Shown here: in pieces, positions 41,822-61,481 of the stretch
Position numbering within the stretch: the first letter of the stretch is position 1
Layout of the letters: each line of letters begins with the position of its first letter
Assembly (NCBI RefSeq): GCF_003003125.1
Contig: NZ_PVTZ01000012.1
Span: 1 to 64,000, forward strand
DNA from: Laceyella sediminis
Lineage (GTDB): Bacteria > Bacillota > Bacilli > Thermoactinomycetales > Thermoactinomycetaceae
Length of the DNA stretch: 64,000 nt
Direction: 5' to 3'
Translations under genes and position numbers: made by a program
The notes under the pieces: model-generated
The model's database searches: none
Told to the model about the DNA's origin: nothing
What the model saw: only the letters and a program-made list of their open reading frames with translations

Positions 41822-41862
41822 AAAAAAACTCTTCTCACAAGCTTGTGAGAAGAGTTTTTTTT
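41822..41862. terminator. Bidirectional terminator after glpQ
   Basis: AAAAAACTCTTCTCACAAGC/GCTTGTGAGAAGAGTTTTTT is a near-perfect long palindrome with T- and A-runs on either side. A slightly diverged copy occurs at 43148-43189 as part of the flanking direct repeat. Confidence 0.92.
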
Positions 41863-42117
41863 GTTCGGTATCACAATATTAATTTTTTCCTTGCTGACTC
41901 TTTACGTATTGGATTAGTTGTGGTTGATTACTTTCTTTTGCTATGGTTTCAGTTAATGCTATCGTAACTAATCATCCTATTAATTTCGGCATGTTTTAAG
42001 GGTGAGATTTTTTACTATCTGATGCAAACATGTTTCCTTCTAAATACGCTATCACAAAATCTTTATACTCTTCCCATTCCCATTGGGTTACGGGCAAAAG
42101 ACTGATAATTTCTTGGA
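41822..42117. repeat. Left copy of a ~296-bp direct repeat
   Basis: Nearly identical (about eight differences and one single-base indel) to 43148-43442. It includes a terminator hairpin, a spacer, and on the minus strand the last ~40 codons of the gene now found intact at 43321-43959. This copy is therefore a fragment. The two repeats bracket the zinc-ribbon/AFLDGYKP cassette. The 41863-42199 interval holds nothing else. Confidence 0.9.
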
Positions 42118-42199: not shown

Positions 42200-42205
42200 T
42201 ATAAT
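42200..42205 (+). promoter_or_regulatory. Promoter -10 element of the cassette (P1)
   Basis: A perfect TATAAT 73 bp before the zinc-ribbon start; the -35 (TTTAAT at 17 nt) is weak. The paralogous cassette at 58 kb also has a TATAAT in the same relative place. Confidence 0.5.
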
Positions 42206-42278
42206 AAAACTGTAGCCGCAACATACGTTCTCTACCCACACTATCTATTCTGGTTAAATAACCGAGGGGGGTATGACG

Positions 42279-42452
42279 ATGCGCGGAAAATGGTTTGTTC
42301 TAAAAGGTATGGGTATCGAAGGCCGTATTGCAAAAAAATTCAGGGCACCAAAACCTAGTGCCTGCTGGTCATGTGGCAAAGACGACAAACTGTCATGGAG
42401 CAACGGGGAGTGGAAATGCTCCCGCTGTGAAGTTGTCGTCGAGCCTGATTAA
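42279..42452 (+). CDS. Small zinc-ribbon protein, cassette gene 1 (copy A)
   Basis: A 57-residue protein (MRGKWFVLKGMGIEG...) from ATG 42279, 7 nt after GAGGGGGG; an ATG at 42273 is too close to that site. Two CxxC pairs, CWSCGKDD and CSRCEVVVEPD, separated by KLSWSNGEWK, form a zinc ribbon. It is 75% or so identical over its last 35 residues to the protein at 58389-58529, including APKPS, LSWSNGEWKC and VVVEPD at the C-terminus. It precedes a conserved partner gene in both places. Function unknown; a nucleic-acid-binding or regulatory role is a guess. Confidence 0.85.
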   Translation: MRGKWFVLKGMGIEGRIAKKFRAPKPSACWSCGKDDKLSWSNGEWKCSRCEVVVEPD

Positions 42453-42473
42453 TCTGATTATTTAAAAAATAGG

Positions 42474-42535
42474 TTGATGACAGTCTAATGTTTGACGTAT
42501 ACTTGAACCAGTCTCATATTTGGGACTGGCTTTTT
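42474..42535 (+). promoter_or_regulatory. Internal promoter and terminator-like hairpin between cassette genes (copy A)
   Basis: TTGATG (42474-42479), 18-nt spacer, TATACT (42498-42503) would start transcription near 42510. It is followed at once by CCAGTC/GACTGG (42508-42529) and CTTTTT, which can end the zinc-ribbon transcript or attenuate the downstream gene. The paralogous locus also has TATACT with an 18-nt spacer. Confidence 0.5.
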
Positions 42536-42563
42536 ATTGATACCAATAAGGAGAGTAGTCCTC

Positions 42564-43115
42564 ATGAAAAAGCGTTGGTACCAAGCCTTTTTAGACGGCT
42601 ACAAACCGGCTGTGTTAGAATTGAACACCCTTCAAACTTACAGCCAATTAAAAGAGTATCCACACATTACACACGTTCTACCGCATGAGCCGCGCAGCTG
42701 TCTGTTCTTTCAAAATGACACCTTGATGAATGACTTTAAAAACAGAATGGACGGTGTACAAGCCTACTCTGGTGCATACCATTATCATCTCGGTATCGCC
42801 CTTGGATTTCCTGAACGATCCGTGCAGTACTATGCACACATGCGGGAAATTGAGGAGTTGGTCGGTGAATATCCAATCGACGAGGTTGAGAACGGCGTAG
42901 GCGTTGTTTGGGCTGGCTTTTACTTTTCTTCTCACAAAGCATTTGTCGTAGATGAGATCAATTGGCTTTGGAAAACATACACCCACAAAGAAGCAGTGAA
43001 ACACCCACTGTATCTAACTGACAAAAAAACGGACAAGACCCTAGAGATTCGTTATGGCGACTTTGACAGCGTTAAAGACTTTGCTAAAACACATCTGGTT
43101 CCTGCCCATATATAA
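42564..43115 (+). CDS. AFLDGYKP-family protein, cassette gene 2 (copy A)
   Basis: A 183-residue soluble protein; ATG 42564 follows AAGGAGA by 9 nt. It is a clear paralogue of 58623-59192. Shared blocks are QAFLDGYKP (residue ~6), EYPHI/QYPYI, FFQN, ALGFPERSVQYYAHMREIEE with GEYP, the most conserved GVxWAGFxF, EIxWLWxTYxHKEAV, EIRYGDFD and LVPAHI at the end. The aromatic-rich, mixed alpha/beta pattern and lack of signal peptide suggest a cytoplasmic protein. No Pfam family comes to mind. Linked in both loci to the zinc-ribbon gene. A hairpin terminator (CCCCG/CGGGG) follows. Confidence 0.8.
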   Translation: MKKRWYQAFLDGYKPAVLELNTLQTYSQLKEYPHITHVLPHEPRSCLFFQNDTLMNDFKNRMDGVQAYSGAYHYHLGIALGFPERSVQYYAHMREIEELVGEYPIDEVENGVGVVWAGFYFSSHKAFVVDEINWLWKTYTHKEAVKHPLYLTDKKTDKTLEIRYGDFDSVKDFAKTHLVPAHI

Positions 43116-43140
43116 CCCCGAAACGGGGCTATTTTGTTTT
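43116..43140 (+). terminator. Terminator of the cassette (copy A)
   Basis: CCCCG-AAA-CGGGG followed by CTATTTTGTTTT. Confidence 0.75.
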
Positions 43141-43147
43141 ATAATCC

Positions 43148-43442
43148 AAAAAAACTCTTCTCACAAGCTTGTTAGAAGAGTTTTTTTGGTCGGCATCACA
43201 ATGTTAATTTTTTCCTTGCTGACTCTTTACGTATTGGATTAGTTGTGGTTGATTACTTTCTTTTGCTATGGTTTCAGTTAATGCTATCGTAACTAATCAT
43301 CCTGTTAATTTTGGCATGTTTTAAGGGTGAGATTTTTTACTATCTGATGCAAACATGTTTCCTTCTAAATACGCTATCACAAAATCTTTATACTCTTCCC
43401 ATTCCCATTGGGTTACGGGCAAAAGACTAATAATTTCTTGGA
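43148..43442. repeat. Right copy of the ~296-bp direct repeat
   Basis: Matches 41822-42117. Here the repeat is joined to the complete gene 43321-43959, so this is probably the original end, with the left copy derived from it. It starts with a terminator palindrome at 43148-43189. Confidence 0.9.
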
Positions 43443-43959
43443 TGAGTTGTTTTAGTTTGGGTGCGTTCATTCGTGCCATTTCCTCTGTTCGTTTATCACG
43501 GATCCAGCGGAATGGTACAAAGATATCTGTGTTTACCTTGATATATAGCCCCCAATCTTCTCCGTCAGCCTCGGTATAGAATGAGAGTGTGATGGCTTCT
43601 CCAAATACTTCCCATTCGAAATTGTCATTATAACAAGTAGTTCCCAAATCAATGTGCATTTCGGTGATATCGCCATTTTGCTCTATAAAGGAAACCAGAT
43701 CTTCGGTTGGATGTGATGTGGTTACTTTCATTTGATTGTGCGAGGCCAAAGTTCGTGTCTCTTGTACATTGAAGGATTTTCTAAATGCATCGTCACCAGC
43801 AGAAACTGTAACCATTTCTATATAACTTACATATCCAAATGATTGAGCGGCCAAGAATATTTTATGAATGAGATCTAAGTTTGTTGTTTTGTGTTTGTCT
43901 ATTTCAACATAGATTGCTCCTGCTATAGAGGGATCATGCCGATGATAGAGTCTTTCCAT
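43321..43959 (-). CDS. Putative immunity protein, divergent member of a local five-gene family
   Basis: A 212-residue soluble protein starting at ATG 43959. It aligns along its whole length with the four paralogues at 44407-48243 (GAIYVEIDKHKTTNLDLIHKIF, SAGDDAF, TEDLVSFIEQNGDI, VNTDIFVPF..., NAPKLKQLIQEIISLLPVTQWEWEE) but is the most diverged, perhaps 35% identical. The 3' end of this gene is duplicated in the left direct repeat. Tandem paralogues beside toxin fragments are typical of polymorphic-toxin immunity arrays; that role is inferred and no family name is recognised. Confidence 0.6.
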   Translation of the reverse strand: MERLYHRHDPSIAGAIYVEIDKHKTTNLDLIHKIFLAAQSFGYVSYIEMVTVSAGDDAFRKSFNVQETRTLASHNQMKVTTSHPTEDLVSFIEQNGDITEMHIDLGTTCYNDNFEWEVFGEAITLSFYTEADGEDWGLYIKVNTDIFVPFRWIRDKRTEEMARMNAPKLKQLIQEIISLLPVTQWEWEEYKDFVIAYLEGNMFASDSKKSHP

Positions 43960-44093
43960 TTGGATCGGCTCCTATATCATTGATATTTACTATATTCATA
44001 TGATTTTAAAACGATGTGATTTTTAAGCAAGCTAACCTTGATCAGTTGGATTAACATGTTGTCAAGTTAATAACTGTTAGCCAAGAATAATAC

Positions 44094-44410
44094 CTAATCC
44101 ATGTCTGGGTTTGAAACATTGACTCTAGGACAAAATTTTTCGTTACGGTTATCTTCTAATACTTCAACGATCTGTTTATTTTCAAAAACTTGACGCTCTA
44201 GGAACTCGATTTCACCGACCCTTCCCAGCCAAGCTGCTTCATTTTTTTGCTAGAAGAATTATTTCTAAAGTTAATGAATTTTTCTTCCGCGTAGCCTGTA
44301 AGATAAGGTCTGAGCGCCTGCATTCTGTCTTCAAAAGAGGCTGCTCTGTGAACTTCCCAATCAAGTTTGGTCTGTGCAGCATCTCGATAAACAGGTAGCT
44401 TATTTGTCAA
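44094..44410 (-). pseudogene. Toxin-domain remnant A (nuclease-like)
   Basis: From TTG 44410, overlapping the stop of the upstream paralogue (translation coupling, TTGA), it reads KLPVYRDAAQTKLDWEVHRA and on to FINFRNNSSSKK. After an A7 run the sensible sequence continues in the -1 frame (AAWLGRVGEIEFLERQVFEN, then VEVLEDN...SNPDMD) until a stop at 44094. The 0 frame stops at 44198. The second copy at 46086-46894 extends further and shows a PD...EVK nuclease-like core, so this copy is truncated before the catalytic part. Confidence 0.6.
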
Positions 44411-45045
44411 TTAATGTTTGCCTCGCTGTTGTGTAATAGGTTATTTAACGGATAGTTGAGATATTCTTTCATATGAGGTAGGGTTTCTTGCCACTCCCAA
44501 TCAGTGACAGGGAAGATGGTTAAGCAATTCTCGAGTAATTGTTTAAGGATAGGTGAGTTTGCTCGTGCCATCGCTTCTGTACAACCATCTTTTTTCCGGT
44601 AAAAGGGGACAAAAATATCCGTATTGATAAATATGTTCATGCCCCACTCTTCGTCAGGATATAGATAAAAAATTAGAAGTACTGCTCCGCCTAACAGAAT
44701 GGTTCGATCATGCTCATCTACACCTGTTGTGCTTAGGTAGAAGTAAAGCTTACAGACATCATGGTGTTCTTCTATAAACGCAATAAAGTCTTTGGTGGGG
44801 GATTCTGTGGTAATGTTCATTTTTTCGATGGGTTGAAAGACTTGTTCTTTTTGTAGATTAATAGATTCAACAAAGGCATCGTCACCTGCTGTCTCGGTGG
44901 TGACTTCAATTCGAGTAACAAATCCGAAGTCCTTCGCTATGTCAAATACCTTTTGGGTTAAGTCCATTATCGAGGTTTTGCTCTTGTCTAATTCGGCATA
45001 AATCGTTCCAAGACCATAGTTTGAACGCCAGACACGTTGTGCCAA
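44407..45045 (-). CDS. Putative immunity protein paralogue 2
   Basis: 212 residues from TTG 45045; the same GTGATGAAAA leader precedes the starts of most family members. Family core: RVWRSNYGLGTIYAELDKSK near the N-terminus, ETAGDDAFVE, TKDFIAFIEEHHDV, FINTDIFVPF and a C-terminal LLENCLTIFPVTDWEWQE. No membrane segment. Its stop overlaps the start of toxin remnant A, so the pair was a bicistron. It differs from its neighbours mainly in the C-terminal tail (LNYPLNNLLHNSEANIN). Confidence 0.65.
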   Translation of the reverse strand: MAQRVWRSNYGLGTIYAELDKSKTSIMDLTQKVFDIAKDFGFVTRIEVTTETAGDDAFVESINLQKEQVFQPIEKMNITTESPTKDFIAFIEEHHDVCKLYFYLSTTGVDEHDRTILLGGAVLLIFYLYPDEEWGMNIFINTDIFVPFYRKKDGCTEAMARANSPILKQLLENCLTIFPVTDWEWQETLPHMKEYLNYPLNNLLHNSEANIN

Positions 45046-45313
45046 TTTTCATCACATCTTTCTGTAAGATAGGTTCCTTAGTGTCTGCATCCTGTCTTCA
45101 GGAGTGGCCGTTCGGTAGCTTTCCAATCAAGTTTGGTATGTGTAGCAGTTGTTTAACGTAATAAATTTAAATACTTTTCCAAATAACATGGTGTTTCTTC
45201 TTGCCACTCGGTAACAGGAAGCTAGGATAAATCGCCTTACATGCATGAAGCGAATGGGAAATAAGGCAATTGTGTTAGACCCTCATTCCGTTCGCCTCGC
45301 TGTTGATAGTAGA
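45046..45313 (-). pseudogene. Scrambled fragments of toxin remnant and immunity-like gene
   Basis: On the minus strand, 45085-45150 resembles the start of the toxin remnant (the KLDW...EDRMQ region), and 45165-45225 resembles the C-terminal end of the immunity-like genes (a run matching the WEW-coding segment). Both are short and out of frame. This shows that the array has lost members by deletion. Confidence 0.45.
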
Positions 45314-45922
45314 TTACTTAACGGATAGTTTGAGATATTCTTCCATATAAGGCAGAGGGTCAAGCCACTCCCACTCGGTGACAGGGAAGCGGGTTAAGCA
45401 ATTCTCAAGCAATTGCTTCAGGATGGGGGCGTTTTTTTGTGCCATTGCTTCTGTGCAGTCATTTTTTTCCCAAAAGAATGGAACGAAAATGTCAGTATTA
45501 ATATGGATATTAATCCACCACTCCTCGTCAGGTTCAAGAAAGAGGACTAGTTGTACGGCACGTCCCAAAAGAACGGTGTTTCCATATTCATTTATACCGG
45601 TGGTGCATAAGGAGAAGTAAAGCCTGCTGACATCGTGATTTTTTTCTACAAACGCAATGAGTTCTTTTGTCGGTGTTTTGGTAGTAATATTCAACTTTTC
45701 AATTGGTTGTTCAAATGGTTCTACCCCTTGTAAATTATAGGTTTCAACAAAAGCGTCATCACCGATTGATTCGGTGGTTACTTCAACTCGATTGATATAT
45801 CCGAAGTCTTCTGCTACACTGAATACTTTTTGAATCAGATCCATTATCGAGGTTTTGCTTTTGTCCAACTCGGCATAAATCGTTCCAAGTCCGTAGTTAT
45901 AACGCCATACACGTATTGCCAA
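45314..45922 (-). CDS. Putative immunity protein paralogue 3
   Basis: 202 residues from TTG 45922 with AAGGTG upstream. RVWRYNYGLGTIYAELDKSK, IGDDAFVE, NTDIFVPFFWEKNDCTEAM and LLENCLTRFPVTEWEWLD are shared with paralogues 4 and 5 at high identity. It is cytoplasmic and acidic. It stands between scrambled fragments and toxin remnant B. Confidence 0.65.
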   Translation of the reverse strand: MAIRVWRYNYGLGTIYAELDKSKTSIMDLIQKVFSVAEDFGYINRVEVTTESIGDDAFVETYNLQGVEPFEQPIEKLNITTKTPTKELIAFVEKNHDVSRLYFSLCTTGINEYGNTVLLGRAVQLVLFLEPDEEWWINIHINTDIFVPFFWEKNDCTEAMAQKNAPILKQLLENCLTRFPVTEWEWLDPLPYMEEYLKLSVK

Positions 45923-46085
45923 TTTTCATCACACCTTTTTAATTTAATAATTCAATTATAATCTAAAATATGTTTTTGTGAATATTTCAGATGATGTAGA
46001 AATCGACAAAAGTTTCCTTAAAGAGCTTTTTACGCTCGGAGACAGGAAACCATAACAGACATGGTTGTTCCTGCCTTTGGTGTTA

Positions 46086-46894
46086 TTAACCTGCAGATTG
46101 GTTGTTGTCCACTGCAAATAATCCAGACTTATCCAAATCATCCAACTCGCGCTTAATTTCGGCCAAAGCCGCTTCGATGGACTCCGCTTCTTTCTCTTGC
46201 TTAGATTCCATTGCAGTCAAATCAAGCTCAGTGATTTCATCAATAACATCACTCAGCGAATTCCATCCATCTGAAGTGTCTTCTGTTGTTCTTTCTTTTA
46301 CTGGAGCGGTTTTCTTTTTCTTCTGCTCTTGCATTTCCTGCTCAATCCGGTTGCGCTCGGCTTCCGGTTTGCTTTGGTAAAGGTCGAAGCGACAACTTTA
46401 GCTCTTTCCCGATAAATTGCAGCGATGCGATGCCCTGTGGCTGTTGATCATCAGTATAAGTAGGAGTATCATAGCCGGAGCTTTTTATTTTTGTATTGGC
46501 TTTTTCCAATTGACCAGTGATTGCACTTTTTTCCCTGAAATGTTATTGATCCCTTTCACTTCATATATTTCTTGTTCAATTCGAAAATCAGGGTTTGAAA
46601 TTTTGGTATCTGGATAAATGTGTATATCACGGTCGTCTTCTAATACTTCAACGATCTGTTTATTTTCAAAAACTTGACGCTCTAGGAACTCGATCTCACC
46701 GACCGTTCCCAGCCAAGCTGCTTCATTTTTTTGCTAGAAGAATTATTTCTAAAGTTAATGAATTTTTCTTCCGCGTAGCCTGTAAGATAAGGTCTGAGCG
46801 CCTGCATTCTGTCTTCAAAAGAGGCTACTCTGTGAGCTTCCCAATCAAGTTTGGTCTGTGCAGCATCTCGATAAACAGGTAGCTTAGGTGTCAA
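46086..46894 (-). pseudogene. Toxin-domain remnant B with PD...EVK nuclease-like core
   Basis: Starts like remnant A (TTG 46894, KLPVYRDAAQTKLDWEAHRV) and shares its A7 frameshift. The shifted frame continues GTVGEIEFLERQVFEN, then SNPDFRIEQEIYEVKGINNI, which has the Asp...Glu-x-Lys spacing of PD-(D/E)xK nucleases and of CdiA-type toxin ends. At least two more frameshifts follow before a third frame gives a charged tail (KKKKTAPVKERTTED ... to a stop at 46086). Most of the body of the parent toxin is missing. A hairpin lies beyond it at 46036-46078. Confidence 0.6.
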
Positions 46895-46924
46895 TAGATG
46901 TTCGTCTTGCTATTAGATAGTAGG

Positions 46925-47536
46925 TTACTTGTTCTTTACGGAAAGGTTAAGATACGTTTCCGTATAATATAGGGTGTCTAGCCACTCCCACTCTGTGACA
47001 GGGAAGCGGGTTAAGCAGTTTTCAAGCAATCGTTTCAGGACAGGGGCATTTGTTTCTGCCATTGCTTCAGTACAAGAATCTTTTACCCGAGACAAAGGGA
47101 CGAAAATATCTGTATTGATAAATATGTTCATCCCCCACTCTTCGTCGGGGTTGAGATAAATGATTAGATCCACGGCTCCGCCTATTAGAACAGTCTGGCC
47201 CTTATCGTTTATTCCTGTTGTGCTTAATGAGAAGCAAAGTTCATTGACATCAGGGTGTTTTTTTATAAAGGTTAAAAACTCTTCAGTCGGGGCTTTGGTA
47301 GTGATATGTAACTGATCGATTGGTTTAAACGCTCCTGTTCCTTGCACATTATATTGTTCAACAAATGCATCTTCACCGATTGATTCAGTAGCTACTTCGA
47401 CTCGACTGATAAATCCAAAATCTTCCGCTATGGCGAATGCATTCTTGATTATGTCCATCATCGAGGTTTTGCTTTTGTCCAACTCGGCATAAATCGTTCC
47501 AAGACCATAGTTATAACGCCAGATACGTATTGCCAA
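46925..47536 (-). CDS. Putative immunity protein paralogue 4
   Basis: 203 residues from TTG 47536. Very close to paralogue 5: both have ESIGEDAFVEQYNVQGTGAF, KPIDQLHITTKAPTEEF, FINTDIFVPL and LLENCLTRFPVTEWEWLDTL. Differences concentrate in the middle (HPDVNELCFSLSTTGINDKG) and around the NTD loop, the region expected to contact a toxin if these are immunity proteins. Confidence 0.65.
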   Translation of the reverse strand: MAIRIWRYNYGLGTIYAELDKSKTSMMDIIKNAFAIAEDFGFISRVEVATESIGEDAFVEQYNVQGTGAFKPIDQLHITTKAPTEEFLTFIKKHPDVNELCFSLSTTGINDKGQTVLIGGAVDLIIYLNPDEEWGMNIFINTDIFVPLSRVKDSCTEAMAETNAPVLKRLLENCLTRFPVTEWEWLDTLYYTETYLNLSVKNK

Positions 47537-47637
47537 TTTTCATCACACCTTTCTGTATAGGGTCGCTGTATCATCTTCACGATGTGCAGTGTATAACTTA
47601 TTAGTTAATACATGTTTGCCTCGCTGTTGATAGTAGT

Positions 47638-48243
47638 TTACTTAACGGATAGATTGAGATATGTTTCTGTGTAATGCAAGGTGTCTAACCACTCCCATTC
47701 GGTGACAGGGAAGCGGGTTAAGCAATTTTCAAGTAATCGTTTCAGGACAGGAGCGTTAGTTTCGGCCATTGCTTCTGTGCGGGCATCTTTGATCCAAAAC
47801 AAGGGGATGAAAATATCTGTATTGATAAAGATGTTCATGCCCCACTCTTCGTCGGGTTCAAGATAGATAGTCAGATCTACGGCTCCACCTATAAGAACAG
47901 TGCGACCATGATCATCTACTCCGGTTGTGCTTAATGAGAAATTAAGTTTTCTAACATCAGGATGTTTTTTTATAAATGCAATGAATTCTTCAGTTGGGGC
48001 TTTAGTTGTGATATGTAACTGATCGATTGGTTTAAATGCTCCTGTTCCTTGTACATTATATTGTTCAACAAATGCATCTTCGCCAATTGATTCAGTGGTG
48101 ATTTCGACTCGACTGATATATCCGAAGTCATCTGCAATAGCGAATGCTTTCTGAATTAGATCCATCATCGAGGTTTTGCTTTTGTCCAACTCGGCATAAA
48201 TCGTTCCAAGTCCATAGTCATACCGCCAGACACGTCGTGCCAT
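47638..48243 (-). CDS. Putative immunity protein paralogue 5
   Basis: 201 residues from ATG 48243, the only array member besides the most divergent one that starts with ATG. Same core motifs as paralogue 4, ending FPVTEWEWLDTLHYTETYLN. It is first in the transcription order of the array, downstream of the remnant at 48301-48453. No dedicated promoter was identified. Confidence 0.65.
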   Translation of the reverse strand: MARRVWRYDYGLGTIYAELDKSKTSMMDLIQKAFAIADDFGYISRVEITTESIGEDAFVEQYNVQGTGAFKPIDQLHITTKAPTEEFIAFIKKHPDVRKLNFSLSTTGVDDHGRTVLIGGAVDLTIYLEPDEEWGMNIFINTDIFIPLFWIKDARTEAMAETNAPVLKRLLENCLTRFPVTEWEWLDTLHYTETYLNLSVK

Positions 48244-54778: not shown

Positions 54779-54854
54779 GGGGCATTAGCTCAGCTGGGAG
54801 AGCGCTACACTGGCAGTGTAGAGGTCAGCGGTTCGAGCCCGCTATGCTCCACCA
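54779..54854 (+). tRNA. tRNA-Ala (anticodon GGC)
   Basis: 76 nt with CCA encoded. Acceptor stem GGGGCAT/ATGCTCC includes the G3-U70 pair that identifies alanine tRNAs; D-arm GCTCAGCTGGGAGAGC, anticodon arm CTACA-CTGGCAG-TGTAG with anticodon GGC, and T-arm AGCGG-TTCGAGC-CCGCT are all intact. Its 3' end is the apparent integration site of the downstream mobile element. Confidence 0.97.
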
Positions 54855-54871
54855 CACGGTTTAAAAGCGTT

Positions 54872-54939
54872 GGTGTACCGTTATTTTACCGGAGTGTTAA
54901 CGTTCATTCACTCGGTAAGGTAGCGGTACACCTTTTTTT
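54872..54939 (+). terminator. First hairpin terminator after tRNA-Ala
   Basis: GGTGTACCG...TTACCG...AGTG pairs with CACT...CGGTAA...CGGTACACC, a long stem followed by seven T residues; isolates the recombinase from tRNA transcription. Confidence 0.85.
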
Positions 54940-54950
54940 GTGCCGTCCTT

Positions 54951-54995
54951 AACCCTCTTGACACGTTATTTGCGCGTGTTAAGGGGGGTTTTTTT
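54951..54995 (+). terminator. Second hairpin with embedded recombinase ribosome site
   Basis: AACCCTCTTGACACG pairs with CGTGTTAAGGGGGGTT, followed by a T-run. The AAGGGGGG ribosome site of the recombinase lies in the 3' arm, so this hairpin can both terminate read-through transcripts and hide the site. Confidence 0.75.
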
Positions 54996-54996
54996 G

Positions 54997-56019
54997 TTGC
55001 CGAAAAACGGAAGACGCGGCCGCGCGAAGCTAGAGCGGGCGTTAAGTCGTTCTAATGAAACGTTAGCAAGCCTACCGGAACTATTCGAAATGTACATTTA
55101 CGCCAAACAAGCGGAGGGCACCGCGAAAGGCACGTTAACTAACAAGCGGCTAGCCGTTAACAAGTTCTTACAGTTCGTCGAAGACAACGGACATCAAGAC
55201 GTATCATTGCGGGCGTTAAGCGTTCAGACCGTTCGGGAGTTCATTTCCTATCTACGGTATAACCACGTAAAACACGAAAATAACCAATTTGTCGATGACG
55301 ACTATAAAACGGCGGGTTTATCGCCTTCCACGGTTAACACGCATTTGAAACATTTGCGCGATTTCTTTAACTTCCTAAAATCCGAAAAATACACCGATGA
55401 CAACCCTTTCCATGCTGTCAAGCTCGTTAAAGAACCCGTGGACGCGGTAGAGGCGCTAACGATGGATGAAATAAAGCGGCTGGTACGCATTCCTGATACT
55501 AAGCGATTCGCTGGATTTCGGGATTACGTTCTAATCGTTCTACTACTAGACACCGGGTTGAGAATCAGTGAGGCACTCGCGCTTACCGCTGATGATATCG
55601 ACTTTAAGACACAAAACATTACCGTTAAAGCCGAGAACGCTAAGAGCGGTAAATTCCGGTTCGTACCGTTCAGCCCCAAGACCGGGCGGTTACTAAAAGA
55701 GCTAATAGCCGAGGTAAAGGAAATAGATTGCGTTTATCTGTTCTGCACGGTCTACGGGAATCCGCTAGAACGGGAGATATTCCGCAAGCGATTAAAGAGG
55801 TACGCGGAAGAAGCGGGGATTACGCGGAAAGTATCGCCGCACGTTCTACGTCATAGCTTTGCGACGCAATACCTTCTGAATAACGGCGACGTAATGTCAT
55901 TGCAGAAGATTCTAGGTCATTCTTCCATCTCAATGGTTCGGCGATATGTACAGATGACCGACGCGGACATATCGAAGACACACGCCAAGTTTTCGCCTAT
56001 ACAAAATATCCGAGTTTAG
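54997..56019 (+). CDS. Tyrosine recombinase / integrase
   Basis: A 340-residue site-specific recombinase. TTG 54997 is chosen because AAGGGGGG lies 8 nt upstream (TTG 54994 is also in frame). The N-terminal SAM-like core-binding domain spans ~25-140, the catalytic domain ~150-340 with TGLRISEAL (Arg I), HVLRHSFATQYL (His-x-x-Arg), LGHSS (His) and RRYVQM (nucleophile Tyr). It is XerC/D-like in length and probably integrates the element into tRNA-Ala. Two terminators shield it from tRNA read-through. Confidence 0.93.
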   Translation: MPKNGRRGRAKLERALSRSNETLASLPELFEMYIYAKQAEGTAKGTLTNKRLAVNKFLQFVEDNGHQDVSLRALSVQTVREFISYLRYNHVKHENNQFVDDDYKTAGLSPSTVNTHLKHLRDFFNFLKSEKYTDDNPFHAVKLVKEPVDAVEALTMDEIKRLVRIPDTKRFAGFRDYVLIVLLLDTGLRISEALALTADDIDFKTQNITVKAENAKSGKFRFVPFSPKTGRLLKELIAEVKEIDCVYLFCTVYGNPLEREIFRKRLKRYAEEAGITRKVSPHVLRHSFATQYLLNNGDVMSLQKILGHSSISMVRRYVQMTDADISKTHAKFSPIQNIRV

Positions 56020-57029: not shown

Positions 57030-58049
57030 ATGAAACTGTTAAACACCTTATCAGCGCTGTTAGTTCTGGTATGCGCGGTATATATTAGCGTTAATCATAC
57101 ACATGATTTGTTTATGGGCGTAGGGTACACGTCGCGGCAGGCGTGGGTTGCTACCATTATGAGCGAAACAATGTTCATTGTCGGGGGAATCAATCTAGCG
57201 GCGGCACGTCTACGCGGGTATAAGCCAGGAACTCCCGCATACCTGGGATTTATTCAAGGCGTCGCGCTCGTTGGCTGGTCTAATATCGCCGCCACATATA
57301 AATACGGAATTGACGGGTGGTTGCTCGGAAGCTCTATAGTCTCCGCCGTTTTGATTATGGAAGCGATTATGACTAACGCCACGAAGAAGGCGGACGAGAA
57401 CGCGGAACAGGAACCGGAGGAGAAGGCGGAAAACGACCAACCGAAAAAACCAACCGCCCGACCAGACCGCCACGACCAACCGGAGCAACCAGACCACCCA
57501 AACCATCCAACCACCCAACGAGAACAGACCGACCAACCGACCAATCAACCGGAACAACCAACCGCCCAACCAGAAGACAACGACAAAGCCGACCAACCGG
57601 ATGAAACCGCCCAAGTAGCGGATACTGCCCAAACCAACCAAGCGGATGAGACCAACCAAGACGTCGCCAAGTCGGAAGAATCCGCCCAACCGCTACCGAC
57701 CGCCCAAGCGGAAGCAACCAACCGACCAACGAATAACAACCAACCGACCAACCAACCGGGAGGAACCGCCCAACCTGAACAACCGGAGGAGGTAACTGAC
57801 CAACCAACCGACCAGCCAACGGGTGCCACCCAAACCACCCAAAACGACGAAACCGCCCAAGCGGATGGAATCGAGGAGACCGACCAAACCGACAAACCTA
57901 CCACGCCGTATGAGTGGGCGGTACACGAATACAAGAGAACGGGAAAAGTTCCCACCCGTCGAGGGTTGGCGAAATTGGCGGGCTGTTCCGAGTGGAAGGC
58001 AGGCAACGCGAAGAAACAACTAGAAGAGGAACTCGGATTAGCCGGATAA
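57030..58049 (+). CDS. Membrane protein with low-complexity linker and C-terminal DNA-binding-like module
   Basis: A 339-residue protein with GGAGGAG before ATG 57030. Four hydrophobic helices (about 5-20, 38-58, 72-90, 98-116) resemble DUF2637-type membrane domains. Residues ~125-295 are an extreme Pro/Gln/Thr/Asn/Asp/Glu low-complexity linker (QPTNQPEQPTAQPE-type units). The last ~40 residues (YEWAVHEYKRTGKVPTRRGLAK, then LAGCSEWKAGNAKKQLEEEL) look like a small helix-turn-helix. The layout suggests a membrane tether for DNA, as in actinobacterial plasmid proteins. Confidence 0.65.
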   Translation: MKLLNTLSALLVLVCAVYISVNHTHDLFMGVGYTSRQAWVATIMSETMFIVGGINLAAARLRGYKPGTPAYLGFIQGVALVGWSNIAATYKYGIDGWLLGSSIVSAVLIMEAIMTNATKKADENAEQEPEEKAENDQPKKPTARPDRHDQPEQPDHPNHPTTQREQTDQPTNQPEQPTAQPEDNDKADQPDETAQVADTAQTNQADETNQDVAKSEESAQPLPTAQAEATNRPTNNNQPTNQPGGTAQPEQPEEVTDQPTDQPTGATQTTQNDETAQADGIEETDQTDKPTTPYEWAVHEYKRTGKVPTRRGLAKLAGCSEWKAGNAKKQLEEELGLAG

Positions 58050-58115: not shown

Positions 58116-58310
58116 ATGTTAGCGGAGAAACAGGCGCAAGTATTCCATAACGCGCAGGACGCTATTAAATCGACCGCCAGCGAGATGAGCCGGAAGTATC
58201 CGGCGGTGGGTTTTTATCTGCTGACCAATCCGCTATTCAACTTAAAAGTAACGCTACATATGCCGGGATTTTCCCGGCATTTTTTATTTCCTTTATCCGA
58301 TACATTATAA
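58116..58310 (+). pseudogene. Short, probably truncated element gene
   Basis: A 64-codon frame from ATG 58116 with AAAGGA upstream. The start (MLAEKQAQVFHNAQDAIKST, then ASEMSRKYPAVGFYL) looks like real protein, but the frame then reads straight through an intrinsic terminator at 58260-58286. The 3' part was probably lost by deletion, as in a degenerating cargo gene. No family recognised. Confidence 0.4.
58260..58286 (+). terminator. Intrinsic terminator
   Basis: ATGCCGGGA/TCCCGGCAT perfect 9-bp stem and TTTTTT tail. A TATAAT, likely promoter P1 of the next cassette, lies just downstream at about 58308-58313. Confidence 0.85.
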
Positions 58311-58388
58311 TAAGAATATACAGAAATGAATGAACTCTATCCGCGCTACCGAATTTACCACATCCTCAATAGAAAGGAGGTAATGGAG

Positions 58389-58529
58389 GTGCGTAGAAAG
58401 TTTGTTTTCGTCCGCTATAAAGCACCTAAACCGTCGCAATGTCATGTTTGTAAAAAAGACGACCAACTATCTTGGAGTAATGGGGAATGGAAATGTGCTA
58501 GATGCTCGGTTGTAGTAGAACCAGATTAA
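58389..58529 (+). CDS. Small zinc-ribbon protein, cassette gene 1 (copy B)
   Basis: A 46-residue protein. GTG 58389 lies 8 nt after AAAGGAGG, whereas ATG 58383 is only 2 nt away; GTG also gives the MR[RG]K start shared with copy A. CHVCKKDD and CARCSVVVEPD supply two CxxC pairs of a zinc ribbon, with DQLSWSNGEWK between them, nearly identical to copy A. It lacks the ~11-residue insertion (GMGIEGRIAKK) of copy A. Placed directly ahead of the second AFLDGYKP gene. Confidence 0.85.
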   Translation: MRRKFVFVRYKAPKPSQCHVCKKDDQLSWSNGEWKCARCSVVVEPD

Positions 58530-58553
58530 TCGATAATTAGACAAAATATTCCG

Positions 58554-58616
58554 TGGATAACACCCTCTCTATTAAGTTATACTAGCACTAGCTTTACACT
58601 CTTAATAGGGAGGGCG
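58554..58616 (+). promoter_or_regulatory. Internal promoter inside a ribosome-site-masking hairpin (copy B)
   Basis: CCCTCTCTATTAAG (58563-58576) pairs with CTTAATAGGGAGGG (58601-58614) in a 14-bp stem with one G-U pair. The loop holds TATACT (58578-58583), with TGGATA 18 nt upstream. Transcripts reading through from the zinc-ribbon gene would hide the GGGAGGG ribosome site, while transcripts starting at the loop promoter lack the 5' arm and leave it open. Confidence 0.5.
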
Positions 58617-58622
58617 TTTCTT

Positions 58623-59192
58623 TTGGGCAAGAGGTATGAGCAAGCGTTTTTAGACGGGTACAAACCGGTGACGTTAGGCTGGAAGGGTAAGCTATTCAAT
58701 GAAATTTACTACGAACAGCTTATTCAGTACCCATATATCAATCCGTATGAAGGTAATCCTAACGGGTATATCTTCTTCCAAAACGGTCAGCTAAAAGAGA
58801 TGTACTTAGAGCGTATGAACGTTGCAAAAAACGAGTATGAGAAACACATTGTTTTAGGGGAAATGCTAGGTTTTCCCGTAAAGTCGGTTAAAAAGTATGC
58901 TGAAATGCGTGTTTTGGAAGATGAATTAGGAGAGTACCCGGAAATAGAAAGGAAACAAGCGGTAGGCGTTGAGTGGGCGGGATTCTTTTTTACTACATAC
59001 CTTGATTTCATCGAAAATGAAATTAAATGGTTATGGGAAACATACCAACACCCGAAAGCGGTAAACAATCTGCTATGCCTATGGTCAAAAGATATAGACG
59101 CTATGGAAATTAAGTACGGGGACTATGTTGCATTAGACAAAGCAGTGCGATTTATTAAGGAAAAAAGAAATTTGGTACCTATCAACATTTAA
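58623..59192 (+). CDS. AFLDGYKP-family protein, cassette gene 2 (copy B)
   Basis: A 189-residue protein from TTG 58623, 8 nt after GGGAGGG. Paralogue of 42564-43115: RYEQAFLDGYKP, IQYPYINPY, FFQNGQL, MLGFPVKSVKKYAEMRVLEDELGEYP, GVEWAGFFFTTY, EIKWLWETYQHPKAV, EIKYGDYVALDKAV and LVPINI align in order. Identity is roughly 40%. The invariant WAGF and WLW-TY-H blocks point to a conserved active or binding site, but no known enzyme motif is apparent. Terminator at 59192. Confidence 0.8.
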   Translation: MGKRYEQAFLDGYKPVTLGWKGKLFNEIYYEQLIQYPYINPYEGNPNGYIFFQNGQLKEMYLERMNVAKNEYEKHIVLGEMLGFPVKSVKKYAEMRVLEDELGEYPEIERKQAVGVEWAGFFFTTYLDFIENEIKWLWETYQHPKAVNNLLCLWSKDIDAMEIKYGDYVALDKAVRFIKEKRNLVPINI

Positions 59193-59219
59193 ACTGTCTT
59201 CTAGGCAGTTATTTTTTTT
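59192..59219 (+). terminator. Terminator of the cassette (copy B)
   Basis: AACTG/CAGTT short stem with an 8-T tail overlapping the stop codon. Confidence 0.65.
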
Positions 59220-60287
59220 GTTCGTAGACCGTCGCCTCTTATATTTTTGCCGTTTCGTCTTACTGCTATAGTGAAGGGGTATTTTACGATATTCCGACTC
59301 ACACACGAAATAAATTTAACTTTTTTCCGGTAAACCCTTATAAAAGGCACCTACTTGTGTTTGTACTCAATAGAGAGGTATTTTTTCGAGGTGAGCGGGG
59401 TTAACCCGTATCACAAAAATAATCTTAATCGTTTTTTACTCGTATCTTATCGCTTACTTGTATCCGTGTAACGCTTCATTATCCAGCGCGACACCGAGCG
59501 GGGAACCGTTCATGAGCGCATCAACCAAGTATTTTATACGTTGCAAGGCGTGGGCTTGCGTGGCTCGCGTCTTTTTTGTTTGCGCTGATAATCAATTTTT
59601 TACAGATAAAACCGAAAGTTATTTCGCTGAATAGTGTGCGAAACAGCGTTCTCATCGGTAAGGTATCATATACGGATTTTTTCGCGGGAGGCGATAACGA
59701 TTTTAGCATTTTATATAAAGAAAATTGGCGTCTAGGTGTGCGAAACGGCCTATTTCCCAGTAATGTATAGTGACGGTTTTTTTCATGAAAGGTGCTGGCG
59801 ACTCCTCCGGGTGGCTACGCTCTTTTCTATGAAAAAGACTTCCCGAACAATAGACCCCGCCCGGTAAATAACGAGAGGGCGCGGCTATCGGTATCTTTTA
59901 GCGGCATCTTTTACCCGAAAGATATACCGGAAAGGAAGTGATTGTAGCCAGCCGAAGCGCTAGCGAAGGATGGCAGGGCGAAGCCCTTAAACATCTTTTT
60001 CTTCTGTGCACCTAAAAAGTGCACAAATGCTTAAAAAGTCCAGTATTCATGCGGGTTTTCGACTCCATTCCTTAAAAGAAATAATAGTACTTTTTAAAAG
60101 TGCTAAAGCACTTTATAAAGGCTATCGCCTTTATTACTAACACTAAACAATTGTTAGATACTCGGTAATAAAACCTAAGTAGTAATAAGCGGTAATAAGC
60201 GAAGGAGTCGCCGCGCCGTTACAAAGTGAGGGCATTCACGCCGTCGCTTATTTGACATTCAAAAAATAAAAAAGGAGATGGTCGATA
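59220..60287. other. 1.1-kb gene-poor, repeat-rich region, possible replication origin
   Basis: No convincing gene; a 64-codon frame at 59576-59770 has no ribosome site. Folding sequences cluster at 60006-60155: GTGCAC/GTGCAC (60006-60024), AAAGTGC-TAAA-GCACTTT (60097-60114) directly abutting ATAAAGGC-TATC-GCCTTTAT (60115-60134), and AACAATTGTT (60146-60155). Direct repeats GTAATAAGCG occur twice at 60182-60201 with a partial third at 60164. This precedes the helicase-like gene, where an origin would be expected. Confidence 0.5.
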
Positions 60288-61481
60288 GTGATTACGGTAG
60301 TTGATTCAATCATGGGAAGCGGAAAAACGTCGTGGGCTATTCAGTACATGAGCGAAGCGGGCACCGACCAACGTTTTATTTATATTACGCCGTTCCTTGA
60401 CGAAGTTAAGCGTGTAATGGATAAAACAAAGGTATTTAAAGACTTTTTGTCTCCGCAAATCAAACGCGGTTCCAAAATGAACAATCTAAAAGAATTGATT
60501 GCGGAAGGTAAAAACATCGTAGCCACGCACAGCCTTTTCCAAGCGGCGGACGACGAATTAATTGAACTCCTCGACGGTGCGGGCTACACGCTGATTCTAG
60601 ATGAAGTAATGACCGTTATAGAACAGGCACCCGTTAAAGTAAGCGACGTCAAATTGTTAATAGAAAAAGAAATCGTGCGAGTCGAAAATAATCGGGTTAT
60701 CTGGCAGTTATACCCTTATGACGACGGGTTGTTCGCCGATATTAAGCGGCTAGCAGAATCCGGGAATCTGTTCATGCACCGTAACCAATTTTTAATTTGG
60801 AGTTTTCCGGCAAGGATTTTCCCAACGTTTGACAACGTGTTTATCCTTACGTACTTATTTGACGGTCAGATTCAGCGCTATTACTACGATTTACACGGCA
60901 TCAAATACGAATATAAGAGCGTCAAGCGGAACGGCGACAGATACGATTTGACCGAGTATAACAGGGACAACGAAGACCGCGAGAGCTTGAAACAGCTTAT
61001 CACGATTTACGAGGGCAAGTTAAACGAGATTGGAGACCGACGGAACGCGCTTTCCGCTACGTGGTTGAAGAACGCCAACGATAAAACAATAGACCGATTG
61101 AAGAAAAACCTTTACACGTTCTTCAGAAGACATTGCGGCTCAAAAACTAACGAAAATCTATGGACGACGCTAAAAGCGAGACAAAACGCGCTAAAAGGTA
61201 AGGGTTACGCTAAAAGTTTCTTACACGTAACGGCGCGCGCTACTAATGAGTATGGAGACCGCCAATATCTAGCATATGTATACAACCGTTTTATGTCACC
61301 GATTGAAAAAGCGTTCTTTGAAGACGCTGGTGTTAGAGTAAATGAAGATTTGTTAGCGTTGAGCGACTTGTTACAGTGGGTATGGCGTGCGCGGATTAGA
61401 AACGGCGAAAGCATTACCGTTTATATTCCGTCTAGCCGCATGCGCAACCTGTTTAAATATTATCTCGATAAAAAAATCTAA
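60288..61481 (+). CDS. P-loop helicase-like NTPase of the mobile element
   Basis: A 397-residue protein from GTG 60288, 10 nt after AAGGAG. Walker A is VDSIMGSGKTSWAIQYM at the very N-terminus, the DExx box is TLILDEVMTVIE (near residue 100), and WVWRARIRNGESITVYIPSSRMRNLF near the end resembles helicase motif VI with its arginines. Between them are FIYITPFLDEVKRV and NIVATHSLFQ, typical of motifs Ia and Ib. It is smaller than most replicative helicases. Probably unwinds element DNA during replication; no primase domain visible. Confidence 0.75.
   Translation: MITVVDSIMGSGKTSWAIQYMSEAGTDQRFIYITPFLDEVKRVMDKTKVFKDFLSPQIKRGSKMNNLKELIAEGKNIVATHSLFQAADDELIELLDGAGYTLILDEVMTVIEQAPVKVSDVKLLIEKEIVRVENNRVIWQLYPYDDGLFADIKRLAESGNLFMHRNQFLIWSFPARIFPTFDNVFILTYLFDGQIQRYYYDLHGIKYEYKSVKRNGDRYDLTEYNRDNEDRESLKQLITIYEGKLNEIGDRRNALSATWLKNANDKTIDRLKKNLYTFFRRHCGSKTNENLWTTLKARQNALKGKGYAKSFLHVTARATNEYGDRQYLAYVYNRFMSPIEKAFFEDAGVRVNEDLLALSDLLQWVWRARIRNGESITVYIPSSRMRNLFKYYLDKKI

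Follow-up and report, generated by a model that had tools for sequence, protein, structure and literature searches.

The 64,000-nt stretch of Laceyella sediminis DNA analyzed here (contig NZ_PVTZ01000012.1, from a genome of 3.39 Mb; hereafter the window) contains, at two places, a small zinc-ribbon gene accompanied by a larger gene whose product carries the motif FLxGxKP. This raises the question of whether the two genes act as one unit and, if so, in what setting. An earlier note had described these pairs as paralogous cassettes, and both were found where it had placed them, on the plus strand. In pair 1 a 59-aa zinc-ribbon protein with the pattern C-x2-C-x14-C-x2-C is encoded from the ATG at 42273 (42273-42452); an alternative ATG at 42279 has a better ribosome-site spacing. 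A terminator-like hairpin with a T-run (42508-42536) separates this ORF from the gene for the larger, 183-aa protein (42564-43115), and another terminator-like hairpin, read directly, follows at 43116-43134. Cassette 2 extends from the -10 region to just beyond the terminator (58300-59234). Its zinc-ribbon ORF begins at an ATG at 58383 or a GTG at 58389 and ends at 58529, and its larger gene (58623-59192) encodes 189 aa and is followed by a terminator-like hairpin, also read directly, at 59192-59220. In the gap of pair 2 there is a long hairpin (58563-58622, with arms at 58563-58576 and 58601-58614) that ends in a T-rich run abutting the TTG start of the larger gene, and its 3' arm likely contains the ribosome site of that gene. 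The pairs are true paralogues, as had been proposed, with 44% identity between the larger proteins (E=4e-44) and 74% identity over 38 aa between the zinc ribbons (E=4e-22). The further claim that the promoter layout is kept holds in part: in both cassettes the zinc ORF is preceded by a strong ribosome site and by a TATAAT-like box, and a hairpin separates the two genes; the -10 region and 5' leader are recognizably common to some further copies of the family.

Both pairs had been assigned to mobile settings, an assignment that is sound for the second pair but weak for the first. Pair 2 is cargo of an element with a tRNA-Ala (54779-54854) and an adjoining tyrosine integrase (54940-56019) at its left end (54779-56019, plus strand). 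This element, which runs from 54779 to about 69300, also encodes an HTH_36 protein, a threonine/glutamine/proline-rich membrane-like protein (57030-58049), a P-loop protein (60288-61481), and HNH-, GIY-YIG-, serine-recombinase-like and second-integrase-like genes. The nearest relative of pair 2 is found in Laceyella sacchari at an unrelated locus, beside a chromosomal metal-dependent-hydrolase-like gene; the alignable stretch is limited to 58300-59234, at about 80% identity, so that the L. sacchari counterpart is a bare block of about 0.93 kb. Pair 1 does lie between 296-bp direct repeats that are 97.3% identical (41822-42117 on the left and 43148-43442 on the right, with no strand assigned). 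These repeats contain the 3' end of the adjoining gene of about 212 aa and are therefore what remains of a duplication and not obvious transposon ends. The same repeat-flanked layout is present in L. sacchari, where the nearest named record, DSM 43356, agrees to 99% in protein sequence and is collinear over long flanks, so that pair 1 is syntenic between the two species. Beside pair 1, on the minus strand (43321-48243), is a tandem array of five paralogues of about 200-212 aa, with repeated ORFs of about 70 aa between some members. One gene of this array has its 3' end duplicated on either side of the pair, and three of the five paralogues were scanned and had no Pfam match. Over the family as a whole, most copies sit among ordinary chromosomal genes, and scans of their neighbors revealed diverse genes with no dominant defense or mobility gene.

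The L. sediminis genome contains 11 copies of the larger protein, including the two in the window. A profile of this protein matches in 21 of 23 Thermoactinomycetaceae genomes, with 1 to 15 matches in each, many of them decayed, and over 80 near-complete copies are present in this family of heat-loving bacteria from soil. The profile search found none in 379 other Bacilli genomes (from a set of 399 that included 20 Thermoactinomycetaceae) or in 347 other Bacillota genomes. The earlier note recognized neither family, and neither protein belongs to a family known in Pfam, NCBIfam or PADLOC, and in these collections neither matches a toxin or antitoxin family above the cut-off. Against the defense models of PADLOC-DB 2.0.0 the larger proteins yielded nothing and the zinc ribbons merely a weak match to Cas12 zinc ribbons. 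Against PDB sequences the larger family had no significant match and the zinc ribbon matched generic ribbons only, such as those of TFIIB, L37Ae and uS14. The larger protein is, however, covered by two phage protein families without an assigned function, with matches over most of the protein: phrog_12543 is matched by all 27 aligned members (best E=2.6e-22) and phrog_22464 by 22 of the 27. The family is undescribed and missed by the common annotation libraries, and it has a dedicated zinc-ribbon partner.

The distant relatives behind these matches are carried by the Bacillus Herelleviridae phiAGATE, SBSphiJ1, Goe17 and KKP_4050 and by phage G, and these homologues match the family profile with E=4e-21 to 3e-14. 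The two larger proteins of the window, used as queries, had no match in phages, plasmids or IMG/VR, and the Bacillus phage relatives were reached only with more central family members as queries. Structural models of the phage proteins match the model of the larger protein at TM 0.52-0.70 (Foldseek E 3e-10 to 2e-4). The phage genes sit within runs of unrelated hypothetical genes, and no zinc-ribbon ORF was present among the neighboring genes that were read. As far as tested, the larger family is found in a single bacterial family and in large Bacillus phages, and nowhere else.

How closely is the zinc ribbon tied to the larger protein? When both sides and both strands of each copy were scanned, with a ribosome-site requirement mostly applied, a zinc ORF was found to adjoin 53 of 84 copies, compared with 4 of 480 control genes. 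Of these 53 zinc ORFs, 43 are upstream and on the same strand, 7 divergent and 3 convergent. A separate count, in the loci analyzed, of zinc ORFs that end 5-170 nt upstream gave 43 of 86 near-complete copies and 5 of 707 other genes (P=3.5e-41). The larger protein does not, then, occur mostly without the zinc ribbon, a pattern that the earlier note had named as evidence against a unit. About a third of the copies had no zinc ORF; among these 31, at least three (L061 6297, L073 and L079) have one by looser scans, which places the true paired share nearer two thirds, and in L070 the zinc ORF is frameshifted. The reverse association is tighter. In a search of the 23 genomes, the best 30 zinc-ribbon matches are all directly upstream of a family gene, as are 34 of the best 35, with a profile that was built from paired copies but several of whose matches were outside that set. 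The distances among zinc ribbons and among larger proteins are correlated (r=0.70 for 41 pairs; the best of 2000 permutations reached 0.22), a co-divergence that linkage alone may also produce. On a quick tree at least 14 changes are needed to account for upstream pairing, so the zinc partner must have been lost or moved many times.

Both proteins are under strong purifying selection. When pair 2 was compared with its L. sacchari relative, the zinc ORF had a dN/dS of 0.028 and the larger gene one of 0.067, rough estimates since dS exceeds 1, but low and not suggestive of diversification. In the same comparison the gap between the genes is 78.5% identical, whereas third codon positions of the larger gene are 62% identical, which argues that the intergenic gap is itself constrained. 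Adjacency in three orientations, co-divergence, purifying selection and a two-gene block common to unrelated loci together lend strong support to the conclusion that the two proteins work together as one unit, as the earlier note had suggested, with a toxin-antitoxin, defense or superinfection module named there as possible forms.

The nature of the constraint on the gap is suggested by its folding. Relative to shuffled sequences, same-strand gaps have a median z of -3.0, with 74% below -2, and control gaps have a median z of -0.6, with 29% below -2 (P=6e-8 for the difference). Within the 110 nt before the larger gene, the strongest hairpin reaches -12 kcal/mol in 88% of same-strand zinc copies, compared with 51% of other copies and 55% of controls. 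Hairpin strength thus differs from controls for the same-strand copies (P=8.5e-7) but not for the others (P=0.47), and divergent and convergent copies are unable to use an intergenic hairpin. In many copies the T-run begins 20-25 nt 5' of the start codon of the larger gene. Where it lies at or near that codon there is no space for a promoter downstream of the hairpin, and we infer that the larger gene is reached by readthrough or from a transcription start upstream of or inside the hairpin. The hairpin could instead simply terminate transcription of the zinc gene. An internal promoter at a TTGACA box that precedes the hairpin is not claimed here, since that box is about 13 nt from a TATAAT-like box, a spacing unfit for sigma-A. 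Neither the leader nor the intergenic hairpin had an Rfam match at the gathering score.

An AlphaFold2 model built with 27 family members depicts the larger protein as a single domain (pLDDT 94.6, pTM 0.88), in which an invariant G-x2-LG-F/Y-P stretch connects two helices in the fashion of a helix-turn-helix. In this model the LGFP region looks HTH-like. A Foldseek search against the PDB gave no match below E=1e-3, and no toxin fold, including one like that of ToxN, was found. The top structure, 2GUK from Porphyromonas gingivalis, is of unknown function and matches with E=6.6e-3 and TM 0.36/0.53; the match is partial, with 98 columns at 19% identity. A remote kinship with DUF3793 (PF12672, mostly from Clostridia) is suggested by profile-profile comparison (probability 88.6, E=2.7e-6), in which the GxKPA and LGxxLGYPxKxV motifs are aligned, and by the similar order of helices and strands in the two models. 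Only 2 of the 27 family members match DUF3793, weakly (best 1.3e-4), and none is above the Pfam gathering cut-off. A fold search with the DUF3793 model does not return the phage relatives, and PF12672 has no match in the L. sediminis genome. Several DUF3793 genes in Clostridia-type genomes (L093, L096, L100, L105) adjoin a flavodoxin-like gene, and none of the DUF3793 loci examined was seen with a zinc ribbon.

The cassettes also turn over rapidly. Copy number is irregular, ranging from 0 to 15 per genome, and decayed copies are present. In Thermoflavimicrobium daqui three cassettes (L066 1-1519; L068, minus strand; L161 4224-6724) have a near-identical upstream gene, leader and first 35 or so zinc codons (MFKNEFDQVHLSGLSMM...). 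Identity at this 5' end is about 95-100% and then falls off sharply across the zinc ribbon and the larger gene, where patches match different siblings, so that these are mosaic paralogues. An N-terminal motif, HLxGL(S/A), is present in zinc partners from three genera (L061, L062, L063, L064, L066, L071). In about 1 Mb it occurs in zinc proteins only, except for one chance match inside a larger protein, and it is possibly a recruitment motif.

We tentatively favor, at somewhat below an even probability, the explanation that the cassette is an accessory unit with an HTH-like core and a zinc-ribbon partner, throttled by the hairpin when the genes are co-transcribed, and that it most likely operates in conflict with phages or mobile elements. 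The larger protein, with its single domain and its LGFP region resembling a helix-turn-helix, would be the core actor, and the zinc-ribbon protein of 45-85 aa its dedicated partner, most likely binding either the larger protein or its nucleic-acid target and so tuning activity or expression. Translation would begin with the zinc ORF in same-strand copies, and the hairpin would pass only part of the transcription, or of the ribosome access, to the larger gene, leaving the small partner in excess. Within one bacterial family, copies of the cassette would be quickly gained, moved, recombined and lost. The data show adjacency, co-divergence, selection on both proteins, the association with the hairpin, turnover and the phage relatives; from these we infer that the two proteins interact physically, that the small one is made in excess and that the unit acts in conflict. 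The relatives in large Bacillus phages make conflict the most likely setting, so that a role in phage conflict is plausible, and irregular copy number, decay, mosaics and phage relatives favor conflict over plain housekeeping. A more specific form of this explanation, which seems to us unlikely to hold in all its parts, is an undescribed phage-conflict or self-regulating module with a phage-kin HTH-like core, a zinc-ribbon partner, dosage control by the hairpin, up to 15 copies per genome, and recombination that keeps the 5' end constant while swapping the zinc ribbon and effector. Should the cassette serve in conflict, it would represent a new defense or counter-defense system with relatives in well-studied phages of B. 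subtilis (SBSphiJ, phiAGATE).

The purifying selection and the neutral neighborhoods of most copies keep alive another explanation, to which we assign a low but appreciable probability: that this is a chromosomal regulatory pair without a conflict role, in which the larger protein would regulate by binding DNA or RNA, with the zinc ribbon as co-regulator. The HTH-like element of the predicted model would fit such a role, as would the many diverged paralogues per genome among ordinary genes. By analogy, the expansion in these mycelial spore-formers might resemble that of BldB/WhiJ/AbaA-type pairs in Streptomyces; Streptomyces venezuelae has 10 bldB paralogues adjoining whiJ and abaA paralogues (PMC10294661). 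These actinobacterial pairs and the XRE-DUF397 pairs, which have been proposed as toxin-antitoxin systems and as developmental regulators (PMC2701414, PMC10294661, PMC6262351), are like the cassette lineage-specific and multicopy, and they combine a small with a larger protein. They belong, however, to another phylum and share no sequence family with the cassette, whose partner is a zinc ribbon and whose proteins have no Pfam match to XRE HTH or DUF397 domains. A purely regulatory role is also less easily reconciled with relatives in lytic Bacillus phages, with the irregular, decayed and mosaic copies, and with the failure to find a conserved neighbor or target gene.

The cassette has a feature of type II toxin-antitoxin systems, in that two small adjacent genes are co-inherited, and toxicity could be assigned to either protein. 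A harmful zinc ribbon restrained by the larger protein would account for the asymmetry of the pairing, in which the zinc ribbon is practically never without the larger gene and the larger gene is often alone, and for the occurrence of the pair as a unit at unrelated loci. We nevertheless consider it improbable: the zinc ribbon resembles no known toxin, its gene precedes the other and is probably expressed at the higher level, and the family is centered on the larger protein, which has phage relatives of its own. The converse assignment, a toxic larger protein whose gene is limited by a terminator in the manner of ToxIN, where the terminator between toxI and toxN sets stoichiometry (PMC5772629), is very unlikely. 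The likeness is real in that the cassette is a discrete unit with a small first element, a terminator hairpin and a larger gene, an order found in most of the 43 same-strand copies and in these only. However, the first element of the cassette is a translated ORF under purifying selection rather than a tandem-repeat RNA, and the larger protein matches nothing in PADLOC, nor was a toxin fold found for it. Further, intact larger genes persist without a zinc ORF, and strong zinc matches are never alone, which makes it unlikely that the larger protein acts as a toxin restrained by the zinc protein as a cis antitoxin. Genome G009, for example, has two complete larger genes, both without a zinc ORF, and no zinc match; trans protection by an unrelated gene is possible there. 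Also very unlikely is that the genes are mere neighbors separated by the first gene's terminator: the third of copies and the phage relatives that lack a zinc ORF do indicate separable proteins, but adjacency persists over deep divergence and in three orientations, no zinc ribbon is found without its partner, the gap is conserved beyond third codon positions, and the two-gene block is common to unrelated loci.

With its same-strand, divergent, convergent and zinc-less forms, the larger gene offers a clean natural experiment. The divergent form occurs on a single branch of the tree only. Some 30 nt separate its two start codons, which flank a common palindromic ribosome site, so that both leaders must overlap; such copies are found at L059 6540-6690, where this site is CTCCTTAGGAG, and in L060, L057/L195, L163 and L194. 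In L. sacchari (L075 7606-12833) two DnaI-like genes are interspersed among three family copies that have no zinc ORF beside them, an arrangement that suggests repeated duplication of a block.
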